Positions 54,785 to 62,437 of a stretch of 64,000 nucleotides of DNA are shown here, piece after piece. Position numbers and translations under genes: made by a program. Source of the stretch: Pyrococcus yayanosii CH1. Its GTDB lineage: Archaea > Methanobacteriota_B > Thermococci > Thermococcales > Thermococcaceae. The notes beneath the pieces were generated by a model, which was given only the letters and a program-made list of their open reading frames with translations, was not told the origin of the DNA and made no database searches. The number at the start of each line of letters is the position of its first letter. Within the stretch, counting starts at the first letter, position 1. The stretch lies in the NCBI RefSeq assembly GCF_000215995.1, contig NC_015680.1, positions 558,001-622,000 on the forward strand, in the 5' to 3' direction.

Positions 54785-54946
54785 ATGGGAAAAATTTTGG
54801 GAGTTTCGGTTCTCTCAAGTAAAGGCACTGTAACCATTCCTAAAAAGGTAAGAGAGTTCCTAAGGTTATCAAGAGGCGATTTAGTTGTTTTCAAACTTAC
54901 AGATAATGGAGAGATCGTAATAAAAAGAGGTGATAATGTTGAGTGA
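54785..54946 (+). CDS. AbrB/SpoVT-type DNA-binding protein, putative controller of the restriction system
   Basis: A 53-residue protein ([12 protein letters not shown], then [16 protein letters not shown] and a GDLVVFKLT strand) with the swapped-hairpin AbrB fold pattern. GGGTGAT precedes the ATG. Its last codons overlap the start of the methylase gene, so the two are co-translated. In classical systems a small HTH controller occupies this position; here an AbrB-type protein seems to take that place, with twin palindromes as likely binding sites. The regulatory role is inference. Confidence 0.75.
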
Positions 54947-55847
54947 GAAATATAACAAAATATATCACATGGATTGTCTTAAGGGAATGCGCGAATTATT
55001 GGAGGATAAAGAAGTTGACGTTGTAGTGACGTCGCCTCCATATAACATAGGGATTAAATACAACAAGTATAAAGACAACATCCCACGAGAAAAATATTTA
55101 AAATGGATCGAGAAAGTTGGAAAGGAAATAAAACGAGTTCTAAAAGACGATGGTTCATTCTTTTTAAATATAGGATATACAAACAAAGATCCATGGATTG
55201 CATGGGAAGTAGTATTCAAGTTAAGAAAGCATTTTGTTCTTCAAAATGTTATTCATTGGGTAAAATCTATTGCTATTCAGAAAGAAGATGTTGGGAATTA
55301 TCCAAATATTCTGGGAGACATTGCAGTTGGACATTATAAGCCAGTTAATAGTAAAAGATATTTAAGCATAATGCATGAATACGTATTTCACTTTACAAAA
55401 AATGGTGATGTTGAACTTGATAAATTAGCCATTGGCGTTCCTTATCAGGATAAAAGCAATATAGGGAGATGGAAGAGCGCAAAAAAAGATCTTCGAGATA
55501 GAGGTAATGTATGGTTTATACCTTATGAAACAATAAAGTCTAAAGAAAAAGAGAGGCCCCATCCAGCAACGTTTCCTACAAAACTTCCCGAAATGTGTAT
55601 TAAGTTGCATGGATTACATAGAACAAACTTAGTATTAGATCCGTTTATGGGTCTTGGAAGTACTGCAATTGCCGCGATTAGGCTTGGAGTAAACTACATA
55701 GGATTCGAAATTGATGAATATTATATAAAAATCGCCGAAGAGAGGATAAAAAGAGAAATTGAAAAAATTAAAGCTGCTGGCCATAACATTAAGGATAGGA
55801 GAGTAACATTGGATAAATATCTTAACGCGTTGAAATATATGAAGTGA
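54936..55847 (+). CDS. DNA methyltransferase, beta class, probably cytosine-N4
   Basis: A 303-residue methylase. Catalytic motif TSPPY at residues 32-36 comes first and the SAM-binding motif DPFMGLGST near 234 last, the beta-class order. TSPPY favours cytosine-N4 methylation, though adenine-N6 cannot be excluded. Start is ATG 54936; GTG 54930 and TTG 54939 are alternatives around the same GGTGAT site. Codons are AT-rich, unlike the flanking genes, suggesting recent acquisition. It protects against the divergent nuclease. Confidence 0.85.
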
Positions 55848-55903: not shown

Positions 55904-57352
55904 TCACGCGGTCGAGCGCTGAAAGGTTTCCGAAAAGAGCATCTCAGCAAGCCCCCTGAGCGTCGTTCCTCTTGCCTTCGCGATCTTTTCTAGAAGCTTC
56001 TGGGACCTACTTCCATACTGGCACGCCTTCTTCTCCTTCCAGGCGACCTCCCTTGGAAGCCCGAGCTGCTCCGCAGCCCTTCTCAGGATGAGCTTCCTGA
56101 TGCCTTCCTTGATTTTCAGCTCCAATGGGGTTCTTATGGCAACCCTAACAACCGCCGGGTCAAGGTAGGGGTACCTAACCTCCACGCCATTGAGCATCGA
56201 GACCTTGTCATCCCTAGCGAGGTTTCTCTCGCCCATCTCTAGAATGTCCCTCTCCATGAGCTCTGGCCTCTGAAGGTATTTCGCATAGCCCCCGAAGAGC
56301 TCGTCCGCACCTTGCCCGCTTAGGAGAACCTTCACACCATCTTCTCTCGCCAGAAGGGTGGCGAAATATATGGGAATGGCAATGGCAAGGTTCACCGCGT
56401 TGGGCTCCTCTATAGCGAAGGCCACCTTTGGAAGGGCCTCCTCGACGTCCTCCCGCGTGAATATGAACTCTTTAAGGGGAAGGCCAAGCTCGTCCGCGAC
56501 CCTCCTTGCCCCTTCTATATCAGGACTGTCCTCCGTGCCGGCGGCGTATAGCGTGATGTCCGAGTATCTCGCCGCGAGGAGAGCTATGAGGGAGCTGTCG
56601 AGGCCACCTGAGAACAGGACACCCGTCCTCTTCGTAGTCCTTATCCGGGTGGCGTGAGGGAGGACGTTTAAAATACCCTTAAGGGCCCGCTCCTCCGTGA
56701 AGAGCTTTCCCGAAAAGGAGAGCGGGTTGACTAGCTGGAACCTCTTTATTCCCCCCTCGGCCACCTCTACGAGCTCCCCCGGCCTCACGGGAATTGCTTC
56801 TTCACCAATGGCCCAGAGGACCTTCTTCTCGGAGGCGAAAAATCCGTTGGGCGAGTAGTAGAGCGGCCTTATGCCGAGAGGGTCGCGGAAGAGGTATATC
56901 CTCTGCCCGTCGAAGAAGGCCACCGCGTAGTCACCGTTGAGCATTAGCATAGCCTTCCTCACGGCCTCTTCTACAGAAAGGCCCTTATCGAAAAGGAGAT
57001 GTTCGAGCAACTTCAGGATTACCTCGCTGTCCACGTCACTCTCGAAGGAGTGCCCCCTTTCCACTAAATATGCCCTCAGCTGGATGTGGTTGTAGATTTC
57101 GCCGTTGTGGACAAGGACGAGGTCATTATAGAACGGCTGGGTGAAATCCTTCGAGCCCGTCATGGCTAGCCTGCATTGAGCGAGAACTATTTTGCCAGAT
57201 GGGACATCATCTAAGTCGGAGAAGTTGGAGGACTTGAACACGCTTCCGTCGGCCCACACTCCGAAAGAATCAGGCCCCCTGTGCTTTCCCGTGAGCATCA
57301 TCCTCACGAGCTTCTCTCGCCCAAGATGTAATCCTCCCACCACGAGGCACAT
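55904..57352 (-). CDS. asnB: Glutamine-hydrolysing asparagine synthetase
   Basis: A 482-residue enzyme making asparagine from aspartate, ATP and glutamine. The glutaminase domain begins with Cys2 (MCLVVGG), the nucleophile exposed after Met removal, which fixes the start at 57352 rather than 57367. HNGEIYNH near residue 70 completes that site. The synthetase domain has the PP-loop LFSGGLDSS near 248. It is shorter than bacterial AsnB, as in other archaea. It borders the restriction island but has normal composition. Confidence 0.93.
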   Translation of the reverse strand: MCLVVGGLHLGREKLVRMMLTGKHRGPDSFGVWADGSVFKSSNFSDLDDVPSGKIVLAQCRLAMTGSKDFTQPFYNDLVLVHNGEIYNHIQLRAYLVERGHSFESDVDSEVILKLLEHLLFDKGLSVEEAVRKAMLMLNGDYAVAFFDGQRIYLFRDPLGIRPLYYSPNGFFASEKKVLWAIGEEAIPVRPGELVEVAEGGIKRFQLVNPLSFSGKLFTEERALKGILNVLPHATRIRTTKRTGVLFSGGLDSSLIALLAARYSDITLYAAGTEDSPDIEGARRVADELGLPLKEFIFTREDVEEALPKVAFAIEEPNAVNLAIAIPIYFATLLAREDGVKVLLSGQGADELFGGYAKYLQRPELMERDILEMGERNLARDDKVSMLNGVEVRYPYLDPAVVRVAIRTPLELKIKEGIRKLILRRAAEQLGLPREVAWKEKKACQYGSRSQKLLEKIAKARGTTLRGLAEMLFSETFQRSTA

Positions 57353-57461
57353 GCCTTCTCCCCTCATCCCGAATTGTCAAACCTCACGAAAAGCCTTTTC
57401 CTTTCCCTCTTGGGTTAGTTTTCTGTTTGGAATGACTTATCCTGAACTGCCGTTCACGGAT

Positions 57462-58520: not shown

Positions 58521-59852
58521 TCACGGTGCCTCCAGGTTCTCCAGAAGCCTTCTTCCCTTCTCCGTGAGCCTGTAATAGACTCTCCTACCACGTTTGAAGG
58601 CGACCTCGACCAGACCAAGGGCCTCAAGCTCCCTCATGTGCTGATAAACGGCCTGATACTTCAGGGGCCTCTCCAGAGAGGCCCAAATTTCGTAGCCGTA
58701 CATCTCCTTCTCGGCAAGGAGTCGTAATATCTCCAGCTTCGTGCCCCCTATGGAGAACCTTTCCCTCTCCCCAGACCATCCCTTAAGGCCAGAGCCCGTC
58801 ACGACGAGGACGACCCTGTCCCCCCTCTCGAAGTACCCGTCCTCGGCTAGCTTCAGGAGGGCGGGCATGACGACCGCGGAGGCGTACTCGGCGAATATCC
58901 CCTCGGCCGCAAGCATCCTCTCGCCCAGGTCGAGTTCATCCTCACCCACGATGACGGCGGTTCCCTCGCTCTTCTTCACGGCCTCAACTGCCCCCTCCTT
59001 CATTACGGGCTCCTTTACGAAGAGGCCGAGGGCCTTGGTTAGCCCACAGTTCTTTTTGAGACCAAGGATCTCGGCCGCTATCGGGTTGCACCTGTCAACC
59101 TGAACTGCTATGAGCCTCGGGAGCTCTCCTATGAGATCGAGCTCGAAGAGCTCCCTAAACCCCTTGTAGATGGAGTAGATGTTGCTCCCGCTCCCCGTCG
59201 GAACGATAACGTGCGTCGGGTTTACCTCTTCCCAGAGCTCAAAGGCTATGGTCTTCTGGCCCTCCAGTCCGATCACGTTGTTCTCGGGAGTAACATCATA
59301 GAGGCCGTTGAGCTTTGCCAGCTCCTTCGCGTACTCTATGCACTCGTCTACGCTCTCTCCGTACCGGATGATCCTCGCCCCGAAGGCTATCATTTGAGCG
59401 AGCTTGCCCTTGTCAACCTTCTTAGGGACGACGACGAAGGCCTCTCTCCCAGCCCTTGCGGCATAAGCGGCAAGGGATGCAGCCGCGTTGCCATCGCTAG
59501 CCACTATGAAGCCGTTTCCCGCATATGGGAGGCCATAGGAAACTGAAACTGTGGCCAGCCTGTCCCTGAAGGAACCCGTGGGGTTCCTTGTCTCATCCTT
59601 TATGAAGACGTCGAATCCCAGTTTCTCGCCTATTTTCGCCTTTATAAAGGGGGTCCCACCCTCTCTTAGGCTAACGATCCTTCTTACGGGGGGCAGCAAT
59701 TCTTTATAGCGCCATACTCCTTTCTCTCTCCTCCTCCATTTCCGCACGTCCACGGCCGAGTAGTCGTACCTAATCTCAAGGGACTCGCCGCAGACGCAAA
59801 AGGGAGGAATTACAGAGGAATATTCCCTGCCGCACCTCGGGCAGGTGAACAT
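58521..59852 (-). CDS. Threonine-synthase-like PLP-fold protein with Arg at the PLP lysine and a C-terminal wHTH
   Basis: A 443-residue fusion. An N-terminal zinc ribbon (CPRC...CVC, residues 4-21) as in archaeal threonine synthases is followed by a fold-type II PLP domain. The Schiff-base motif, normally NPTGSFKDR, reads NPTGSFRDR with Arg96 (codon AGG). The phosphate-binding SSGNTA reads SDGNAA, and the Gly-rich loop reads PTGSGSN. From about 370 a PadR-like winged helix follows (EILRLLAEKEMYGYEIW...YRLTEKGRRLL). A regulator that senses a ligand with the old enzyme fold is plausible; an enzyme with altered chemistry is the alternative. Confidence 0.8.
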   Translation of the reverse strand: MFTCPRCGREYSSVIPPFCVCGESLEIRYDYSAVDVRKWRRREKGVWRYKELLPPVRRIVSLREGGTPFIKAKIGEKLGFDVFIKDETRNPTGSFRDRLATVSVSYGLPYAGNGFIVASDGNAAASLAAYAARAGREAFVVVPKKVDKGKLAQMIAFGARIIRYGESVDECIEYAKELAKLNGLYDVTPENNVIGLEGQKTIAFELWEEVNPTHVIVPTGSGSNIYSIYKGFRELFELDLIGELPRLIAVQVDRCNPIAAEILGLKKNCGLTKALGLFVKEPVMKEGAVEAVKKSEGTAVIVGEDELDLGERMLAAEGIFAEYASAVVMPALLKLAEDGYFERGDRVVLVVTGSGLKGWSGERERFSIGGTKLEILRLLAEKEMYGYEIWASLERPLKYQAVYQHMRELEALGLVEVAFKRGRRVYYRLTEKGRRLLENLEAP

Positions 59853-59856
59853 GGCT

Positions 59857-61812
59857 TCACCTCAGCCTTATGGTATCCAAGTTGTTTGGTGCCCTCGTCG
59901 ATAGGCCAAACTTCTTGTGAATGCTCGTGGCAAGATCGAGACACTTCTGGGGCTCCCCGTGAACCGTTATAACGCGCTCGGGCCTAGGCTTCACGCGTGC
60001 CACGTAGTTCATAAGCTCCCTTCTGTCCGCATGGCCAGAGAAGCCGTCTATCGTGTATACCTCCATGTTCACCTTTATGACCTCGGTCTTTCCGCCCTCG
60101 CCAACCATCGGTATCTCTCTCGCACCATTCTGTACCTGCCTTCCCAAAGTTCCCTCGGCCTGATAGCTGACGAATATCATGCTGTTCTTTGGATCTGGGG
60201 CCAACTGCTTGAAGTACTCGACGCTTGGCCCTCCCACGAGCATGCCCGATGAGGCTATTATTATCGCGGGCTCATTGCTGTCTATTATATCCTGCCTCTC
60301 CCTGCTGTTGGCGACGGGCTTAAAGACCTCGTTGAGGAACGGGTTGTAACCCTCGTGGAATATCTGCTCCCTAAGCCTCTTGCTGAGGTACTCGGGGTAG
60401 GCCGTATGAATTGCGGTTGCCTCCCAGATCATGCCATCGAGGTATATGGGGACGTCTATGCCGCCAATGCGGGCGTACTCCTCGAGAACCATCATGACCT
60501 CCTGGGCCCTTCCGACGGCCATCGCTGGGATGAGAACCTTTCCGCCGCGCTTTATTGTTCTGTGAATGACCTCAATTAGCCTCTTCTCGGCCTCCTCGCG
60601 GGGCATCTGGATGTCATTGCTTCCTCCATAGGTAGCCTCCATCACGAGCGTCTCTAGGCGGGGAAATCTCGCATTTGCTGGCTCAAGAAGCCTCGTGGGG
60701 ATAAACTTGAAGTCGCCCGTAACCGCTATGTTGTGGAGCCCGTTCCCTATGTGGAGGTGGACTATTGCAGAACCGAGAATGTGGCCAGCGTTGTGGAGCG
60801 TGAGCCTTATGTCGGGCGAAATGTCACGGACCTCGCCGTAGTCGAGGGTTATGGTGTGCTTTATGACTTCCTTTATATCCCTTGGCCTGTAGAGGGGCTC
60901 CTGGCCGTTGCTCTGCTGTATCTCTATGAAGTCCTTCTGGAGAAGCACCATCAAGTCCCTCGTCGGTGGCGTCGTGTATATCGGCCCATCAAAGAGGTTG
61001 TAGCGGAAGAGATAAGGTAGCATGCCGCTGTGGTCGAGATGGGCATGTGTTATGATTATCGCATCGAGCAGACCCTCCTTGAGGACGTACTGGAACTCGG
61101 GGGCGTCGAAGTGGGGGAAGGCCTTGTAGGGGTCGTTCATCGCCGCAACGTTTACACCGAAGTCGACTAAGACATAGCTCTCGTCGGTCTGGACAAGGAG
61201 GGCGCTCCTTCCGACTTCCCTGAAACCGCCGAGCCCGGTTATTCTTATCCAGCGGCTTTTGTACTCCGGCTTTCTGTATATGTTCCTGCCCACCTGCCTG
61301 AGGAACTTCCTCCTGTCCTTGCTCTCGGTCTGGAGTAGTTGTCTAATTGAGTAGATGGTCTGGCTCTGGAGAGGCGGCGTCCTAACGACGCGGGGTGCCC
61401 AATGAACCTTCTGCGTTATTAGGCGAAGAGTCTCGCCGTTCTTTCCTATGACTAGACCAGGTTTCTTCGCCTCTATTAAGACTTCACCGACGGAGGGGTC
61501 AAAGCTTACGCTCGTTATCTCGGCCTCCTTTGGCACTATCTCCATTATGAGCTTCTCAGCCTCCTCAGGAGGTAGGAGAACCTCTGGGTCAGGTCTAATG
61601 CTTATCCTCTTCTTGAGCACCTTGGCGAGGTCTCTGATGAGTTCCCCGTCCTTCATTATGGCCTCGGGGTTCTTCACGTAGATGACGAGCTCCGGCCCCT
61701 CGAACTCTATGTCCGTTATCTTCGCCTCTTTTGGGACCATTTGACTGACGATTTCCCTAATCTCCTTGAGTATCTCGTCAACCCTGGTCTCTCTCTTAAT
61801 CACCAGCACCAC
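59857..61812 (-). CDS. fttA: Archaeal CPSF-type ribonuclease and termination factor
   Basis: A 651-residue aCPSF1/FttA protein that cuts nascent RNA 5' to 3' and drives transcription termination. The N-terminal KH-like domains (about 1-145) have VIGKNGETLR near 122. The metallo-beta-lactamase core has HAHLDHSGM near 242, and the beta-CASP domain follows. HGEP near 620 and the conserved tail APNNLDTIRLR, needed for dimerisation, are present. Its stop and the next gene's start are close; psmB lies just upstream. Confidence 0.96.
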   Translation of the reverse strand: MVLVIKRETRVDEILKEIREIVSQMVPKEAKITDIEFEGPELVIYVKNPEAIMKDGELIRDLAKVLKKRISIRPDPEVLLPPEEAEKLIMEIVPKEAEITSVSFDPSVGEVLIEAKKPGLVIGKNGETLRLITQKVHWAPRVVRTPPLQSQTIYSIRQLLQTESKDRRKFLRQVGRNIYRKPEYKSRWIRITGLGGFREVGRSALLVQTDESYVLVDFGVNVAAMNDPYKAFPHFDAPEFQYVLKEGLLDAIIITHAHLDHSGMLPYLFRYNLFDGPIYTTPPTRDLMVLLQKDFIEIQQSNGQEPLYRPRDIKEVIKHTITLDYGEVRDISPDIRLTLHNAGHILGSAIVHLHIGNGLHNIAVTGDFKFIPTRLLEPANARFPRLETLVMEATYGGSNDIQMPREEAEKRLIEVIHRTIKRGGKVLIPAMAVGRAQEVMMVLEEYARIGGIDVPIYLDGMIWEATAIHTAYPEYLSKRLREQIFHEGYNPFLNEVFKPVANSRERQDIIDSNEPAIIIASSGMLVGGPSVEYFKQLAPDPKNSMIFVSYQAEGTLGRQVQNGAREIPMVGEGGKTEVIKVNMEVYTIDGFSGHADRRELMNYVARVKPRPERVITVHGEPQKCLDLATSIHKKFGLSTRAPNNLDTIRLR

Positions 61813-61813
61813 C

Positions 61814-62437
61814 TCAGCCCTTCAGAATGGTATTTACTTCCTCCTCGCTTAACTCGCGATAGCCCTTCTCGGTAATCGTGACCACGGTTATGCCCTCACC
61901 CGTGAAAACATCCCTCTTTATGGCGGAGTTTATGGCCCTCACGGCGAGCTTCACACCCTCTTCCACGCTCATCTCAGGCTTGTATTGGGAGTCAAGTATC
62001 GAGAAGGCGAACTCCATACCGGAGCCAGCCGCCACGTATTTATCCTCCGTAATCCCACCGGCCATATCCACCGAATAAAGCCGGGGGGCGTCGTCGTAAC
62101 CTCCCACGAGGAACCACACAAGGTAAGGGAAATAGCGAGTGCCGTTCAGTATGTTGGCCAGAAGCGTTGCGAGGGCCTTGGCACTCATACTCCTCCCGAC
62201 TCTGGATCTGTAGAGCCTAACCTCTGCCCTGAGGAGCCTGACGAGGCTGAGGATGTCTCCAACGTTCCCTGCCCCAGCTATAGCCAGACGCTCGTCTATC
62301 TGGTATATCTTAGTGACGTTTTTTGCATAGACCATGTTGCCAAGGCTAGCCCTCCTGTCTGCCGCCAGAACCACGCCGTCCCTACATACAATGCCCACCG
62401 TGGTTGTGCCCTTAAACTTTTCTGTCAAGTGCAACAC
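61814..62437 (-). CDS. psmB: Proteasome beta subunit
   Basis: A 207-residue catalytic subunit of the 20S proteasome. A short propeptide ([10 protein letters not shown]) precedes Thr11, the nucleophile after processing (TTTVGIV). Lys and Asp partners lie in AADRRAS near 27 and the GSGMEFA segment near 140. Thermococcales carry two beta subunits; the location beside aCPSF1 fits the one often named PsmB1. A TATA box lies about 55 bases upstream. Confidence 0.95.

Follow-up and report, generated by a model that had tools for sequence, protein, structure and literature searches.

What does a protein do that has the fold of threonine synthase, carries an arginine where the enzyme has its PLP-binding lysine, and ends in a winged helix (wHTH)? 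Such a protein is encoded in the window, the 64,000-nucleotide stretch of DNA analyzed here, which comprises bases 558001-622000 of the Pyrococcus yayanosii CH1 genome (one contig, 1,716,818 bases). Sequence comparisons across two archaeal phyla suggest that it is most probably a transcription repressor of an archaeal vitamin B6 regulon, descended from a threonine synthase in which catalysis was lost and a C-terminal wHTH acquired.

The coding frame lies on the minus strand (Table 1); the plus strand of 58521-59852 is interrupted by stops. The initial annotation described a threonine-synthase fold in which the PLP lysine is replaced by Arg96 (AGG), with a PadR-like wHTH at the C-terminus, and this description is borne out by residues 90-98 (NPTGSFRDR) and by the Pfam matches to PALP and PadR. 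Among solved structures, threonine synthases come closest (E 2e-51), and the PadR match (PF03551, residues 375-438) reaches 40.8 bits against a cut-off of 27. Members of the PadR family have a helical dimerisation domain C-terminal to the wHTH, which is missing here, the protein stopping 5 residues past the PadR match. The AlphaFold2 model of the protein, obtained with four homologues, was poor (pLDDT 55). Over its whole length the protein matches the NCBIfam model NF004170/PRK05638 (773.6 bits, model positions 2-441 of 442; curated cut-off 421 bits). Since the 442 positions of this model already span the wHTH, the family is known to databases, under the name of the enzyme.

Table 1. Features of the regulator gene, its product and associated genes (window positions, except pdxS, which is in genome positions)
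Feature	Position	Strand	Evidence
Regulator gene, threonine-synthase-fold pseudoenzyme with C-terminal wHTH, 443 aa	58521..59852	minus	open frame; full-length NF004170 match, 774 bits
Cys-rich N-terminal stretch CPRCG...CVCG, zinc-ribbon-like, residues 1-25	59778..59852	minus	sequence reading; stretch shared by orthologues
Fold-type II PLP domain PF00291 (PALP), residues 60-353, proposed PLP-sensing domain	58794..59675	minus	Pfam E 8e-69; threonine synthase structures E 2e-51
Arg96 codon AGG, Schiff-base lysine position	59565..59567	minus	Arg in 101/105 family members; six Arg codons used
SDGN, residues 119-122; Asn122 is the PLP-contact Asn	59487..59498	minus	Asn 105/105; preceding position Asn/Asp, not Thr
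GSGSN, residues 220-224, PLP-phosphate loop	59181..59195	minus	Gly 104/105 and 105/105 at two positions
Thr352, equivalent of PLP ring-nitrogen contact	58797..58799	minus	Thr in 102/105
PadR/AspA-like winged helix, residues 371-440, proposed DNA-binding domain	58533..58742	minus	PF03551 E 2e-10; AspA and PadR structures E 3e-4
arCPSF1-like gene, upstream of regulator gene	59857-61812	minus	same order in nearly all Thermococcus and Pyrococcus loci
psmB-like gene, upstream of regulator gene	61814-62437	minus	same order in nearly all Thermococcus and Pyrococcus loci
pdxS (PLP synthase), window genome	951,557-952,159	minus	downstream of single palindrome

Only 4 bases separate the arCPSF1-like gene from the regulator gene, and the latter is probably co-transcribed with the psmB-like and arCPSF1-like genes, which have no part in the mechanism proposed below. 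Elsewhere in the window, a DNA-methyltransferase-like ORF with the motif TSPPYN (54930-55847) adjoins an asparagine-synthetase-like gene (55904-57367).

The loss of the lysine is shared by nearly the whole family. When 105 distinct sequences of the regulator family were aligned with Thermus thermophilus threonine synthase, the Schiff-base position was Arg in 101, with Lys, Met, Phe and Ile occurring once each. All six arginine codons (AGG, AGA, CGC, CGA, CGT and CGG) are in use at position 96, and the arginine is therefore under purifying selection; a local mutation or a pseudogene is ruled out by this codon turnover together with the conservation. Orthologues at 67-77% identity are present in about two-thirds of 94 Thermococcales genomes and have Arg96 in all except Palaeococcus G002 and the partial G003, both of which have Lys. 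One orthologue (G077) is broken by a frameshift or a sequencing error into a pair of overlapping frames that cover residues 17-148 and 144-441; its genome still has the palindrome described below at the S gene. The arginine and the wHTH are conserved together among the Thermococcales homologues, a point that the initial annotation had wished to see checked, and the pairing extends further. Every family member read at full length ends in the wHTH, and searching with NF004170 added four genomes from a second taxonomic family of the same class, whose proteins have both Arg and wHTH at 43% identity. The same model matched in 56 of 398 genomes of a Thermoproteota sample, a designation that rests on one Bathyarchaeota record, with the sub-labels Bathyarchaeia and Desulfurococcales inferred. 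Forty of the Thermoproteota loci were read, and Arg occupies the position in 37, Met, Phe and Ile in the remainder and Lys in none.

A tree restricted to the PALP domain, built by a quick method with the Lys/Arg residue masked and containing some long branches, has one branch that parts 64 regulator-type from 25 threonine synthase (TS)-type proteins (SH-aLRT 88). The regulator family is monophyletic and extends to Thermoproteota. Lys-bearing paralogues without a wHTH fall into three groups in the 94 Thermococcales genomes; the group that adjoins thrB in several of them is the real ThrC.

We compared the pocket with that of the enzyme, counting residues in the family alignment and assigning their roles in PLP or substrate contact from threonine synthase structures. 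The Asn that contacts PLP O3' is present in 105/105 members, the Thr at the ring nitrogen in 102/105, and the two glycines of the PLP-phosphate loop in 104/105 and 105/105, whereas the Schiff-base Lys is found in 1/105. The arginine that binds the substrate phosphate, Arg160 of the T. thermophilus enzyme, is retained in 0/105 family members versus 23/25 TS-type proteins, and the Asn and Ser next to it are also replaced. The initial annotation had listed SDGN and TGSGSN (residues 219-224) as altered PLP-site motifs. Both strings read as quoted, but judged from the alignment they keep the PLP contacts, and the residues lost are those on the substrate side. With PLP contacts kept and substrate contacts lost, the pocket may hold PLP and not homoserine phosphate, and family proteins named threonine synthase very probably do not make threonine.

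Genomic context links the family to a transporter. In 32 of the 40 Thermoproteota loci the regulator gene is followed, mostly as an immediate neighbor on the same strand, by a gene for a PF07155 ECF S component, and in nine of these 32 an ATPase and a further membrane protein come next, which by gene order makes them whole ECF transporter operons. PdxU and PdxU2/HmpT, both B6 transporters, belong to PF07155 (PMC9997740). The linked S components score 105.7, 115.2 and 86.9 bits against it and the one encoded by the window genome 116.7 bits; the sole PDB match of the S component is an ECF structure, 4hzu. In 15 Thermoproteota loci the S component is followed by a protein of about 340 aa that resembles AIR-synthase/HypE/ThiL.

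In Thermococcales the S gene sits elsewhere in the genome, away from the regulator. Among near-complete genomes, 52 with the regulator have the S gene and none lacks it, versus 12 with and 11 without among those that lack the regulator (p = 3e-7, which overstates independence). Complementarity between the S component and pdxS is weak: no near-complete genome is without both (p = 0.058). The S component is thus named here as a candidate B6 transporter, its substrate suggested by family and regulon; PF07155 also covers riboflavin-type S components. Riboflavin, after which Pfam names the family, was not adopted as the substrate, given that PF07155 includes PdxU and HmpT and that a palindrome shared with the S gene lies at pdxS. 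In Thermococcus a class III aminotransferase-like gene usually precedes the S gene in the same orientation, which may be a further link to PLP.

This palindrome reads TCAAGTTTTAACTTGA in Thermococcales and AGTATAGTTATAACTATACT in Bathyarchaeia, with the common core AGTTnnAACT, and at both pdxS and S promoters it lies directly downstream of a TATA-like box. Thermococcales that have the regulator carry TTTCAAGTTTTAACTTGAAA or a variant upstream of the S gene, directly behind that box, and the S-gene palindrome is absent in three Thermococcales genomes without the regulator. The Thermoproteota S promoter, between the regulator and the S gene, contains TAGTATAGTTATAACTATACTA or TTCTTAAAGTTTAAACTTTAATA. 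Of 31 such promoters, 15 hold a near-perfect dyad, defined as 8 or more matches over 9 arm positions, compared with a mean of 0.9 and a maximum of 4 in shuffled controls. Allowing up to two mismatches, the core is found in 25/31 of these promoters versus 2/31 stretches upstream of the regulator, and no palindrome was found upstream of the regulator gene itself in the 40 Thermoproteota loci or in the window.

Genome-wide searches returned the same genes. Exact copies of TCAAGTTNNAACTTGA occur at 30 places in 23 of the 94 Thermococcales genomes, all of them regulator-bearing, with 1 for the reversed control. By coordinates and loci read, 22 of these places are at the S gene, 6 at pdxS (one at the edge of a contig, which truncates the gene, assigned to pdxS from its promoter) and 2 elsewhere. 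The latter two are one locus in two relatives (G078:C1:1250070 and G082:C88:361), where a moeA-like ORF ends close to a serS-like gene, and may be chance or a further target. With up to three mismatches allowed, the pdxS promoters of 55 genomes have the palindrome in 33/33 cases with the regulator versus 1/22 without it (p = 2.6e-14, again with independence overstated). Regulator and palindrome were lost in Thermococcales in only one or two events on a 20-genome tree, and co-occurrence p-values therefore overstate independence. In the window genome CAAGTTNNAACTTGA occurs once, at 952,231-952,245, upstream of pdxS and immediately after CCTTATAT. Palindromes at Pyrococcus S promoters are weak, and the S promoter of P. 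yayanosii itself has no clear one. In the Thermoproteota sample, AGTATAGTNNNNACTATACT with up to one mismatch was found at 21 places in 20 of 40 genomes, and by coordinates all 21 fall immediately after the regulator, upstream of a PF07155 gene or (in G115) of pdxS-pdxT. The palindromes differ in the two phyla yet mark pdxS and the S gene in both, and thus the same two targets.

Given a PLP fold that lacks the lysine, a wHTH, and a palindrome at genes for PLP synthesis and B6-type transport, a PLP-responsive regulator is by far the simplest reading. The earlier suggestion that an enzyme fold was turned into a transcription regulator gains from the co-conservation of Arg and wHTH and from the palindrome at the putative target promoters. 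Because this palindrome lies at pdxS and the PF07155 gene, PLP or vitamin B6 is the likely ligand. We propose that the fold-type II pocket would bind PLP without a Schiff base, Arg replacing Lys, and that the PLP-loaded dimer would bind TCAAGTTnnAACTTGA in Thermococcales. The bound site would lie just behind the TATA box of pdxS and of the ECF-type B6 transporter gene, such that plentiful PLP would block transcription of both. That the protein binds the palindrome, that PLP is its ligand and that PLP acts as a co-repressor are all read from sequence patterns. The sign is favored by position: a palindrome behind the TATA box argues for repression and hence for PLP as co-repressor.

The same regulon and palindrome could also be served by an activator, or by an apo form that binds DNA, activates and is released by PLP, like bacterial PdxR. 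PdxR activates without PLP. It also controls similar genes, its reconstructed regulon comprising pdxST, pdxK and pdxU (PMC5320631). A protein bound directly downstream of a TATA-like box would, however, be expected to hinder initiation, and we consider activation unlikely.

It is quite improbable that the palindrome belongs to another transcription factor and that the protein serves, for example, as a PLP store or as an enzyme of another reaction. The binding of protein to palindrome is itself inferred, and the independent losses are few, both of which leave room for this explanation. Against it stand the distribution of the palindrome, found in regulator-bearing genomes and absent from others, its place immediately after the regulator gene in Thermoproteota, and the wHTH of the protein.

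A role in controlling threonine metabolism, with threonine or homoserine phosphate as the sensed ligand as the initial annotation suggested, would suit the threonine synthase fold and the five Bathyarchaeal loci in which a real ThrC gene lies divergent beside the regulator. Yet the substrate-phosphate Arg is lost in 105/105 members; the residues that bind homoserine phosphate being gone, that ligand is probably wrong. Moreover, occurrence of the regulator shows no association with thrB (p = 0.12), a co-occurrence result that led us to reject a threonine regulon as its main role, and palindromes lie at pdxS and the S gene, with none seen at thrC. The window genome itself has the regulator, yet neither a plain ThrC nor a thrB above cut-off was found in it. 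We regard threonine sensing as very improbable, and the organism, which has homoserine dehydrogenase despite the missing ThrC and thrB, is probably a threonine auxotroph. At the five divergent loci the intergenic gap ahead of the regulator showed no palindrome, so the adjacent ThrC may be a trace of tandem duplication and not of regulation. An active threonine synthase with a regulatory domain, as the database name would have it, is hardly credible, since the Schiff-base Lys and substrate-phosphate Arg are lost throughout and a different protein, which has the Lys and is encoded beside thrB in several genomes, is the real ThrC.

A PLP-responsive repressor resembles several known systems in part. 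Bacterial PdxR keeps the PLP lysine. The best reading of the sequences is a functional analogue of PdxR on an unrelated PLP fold: both join a PLP-enzyme fold to a winged helix, and the PdxR regulon likewise covers PLP synthesis (pdxST) and B6 transport (pdxU) (PMC5320631). In our case the palindrome, a putative binding site, is found at pdxS and a PF07155 gene in two phyla. PdxR is a fold-type I aminotransferase with an N-terminal wHTH, whereas the window family has fold type II, Arg for Lys and a C-terminal wHTH; with PALP and a PadR-like wHTH, it does not belong to the MocR/PdxR (GntR) proteins, which are reported not to occur in Archaea (PMC5320631). To T. thermophilus ThrC (PDB 1uim) the family is similar in fold and PLP-contact residues, but it has lost the Schiff-base Lys and the phosphohomoserine residues, gained a wHTH and acquired other genomic partners. 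NF004170/PRK05638 'threonine synthase' is the same family at full length, wHTH included, with the active-site features of threonine synthase missing. The archaeal thiamine regulator ThiR, whose wHTH is attached to a ThiN-like enzyme domain, also joins a biosynthetic enzyme fold to a DNA-binding domain for control of a vitamin, but it differs in fold and vitamin, and its sensor derives from a vitamin-making enzyme, that of the window family from a cofactor-using one.

Our literature search, which covered a minority of subscription journals, found no prior description of the protein or of an archaeal B6 regulator. It seems fairly likely that the family represents an archaeal B6 repressor without prior description in that search, possibly the first transcription factor with a fold-type II PLP pseudoenzyme as sensor, with PLP as co-repressor without a Schiff base, in a lineage older than the split of Thermococci and Thermoproteota or passed between both, and hidden under the name threonine synthase. 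This would represent a second, independent route from PLP enzyme to PLP sensor and would correct a database name spread over many genomes. Candidate regulator, operator, regulon and B6 transporter form one testable set.

The Palaeococcus proteins bear on the role of the arginine. The initial annotation had reasoned that homologues keeping Lys beside the same wHTH would make Arg a local mutation. Such homologues exist, but only as one clade (codons AAA and AAG in G002 and G003; relatives carry Arg). In the PALP tree this clade is nested within Arg lineages and is sister to an Arg-bearing Palaeococcus, and its Lys is therefore most simply a reversion. Both genomes retain the palindrome at the S gene and at pdxS, and the regulator therefore tolerates Lys; here it may bind PLP covalently. 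Arg would then mark the loss of catalysis and not a strict need for regulation, and the Palaeococcus proteins offer a natural test of PLP binding with versus without a Schiff base.
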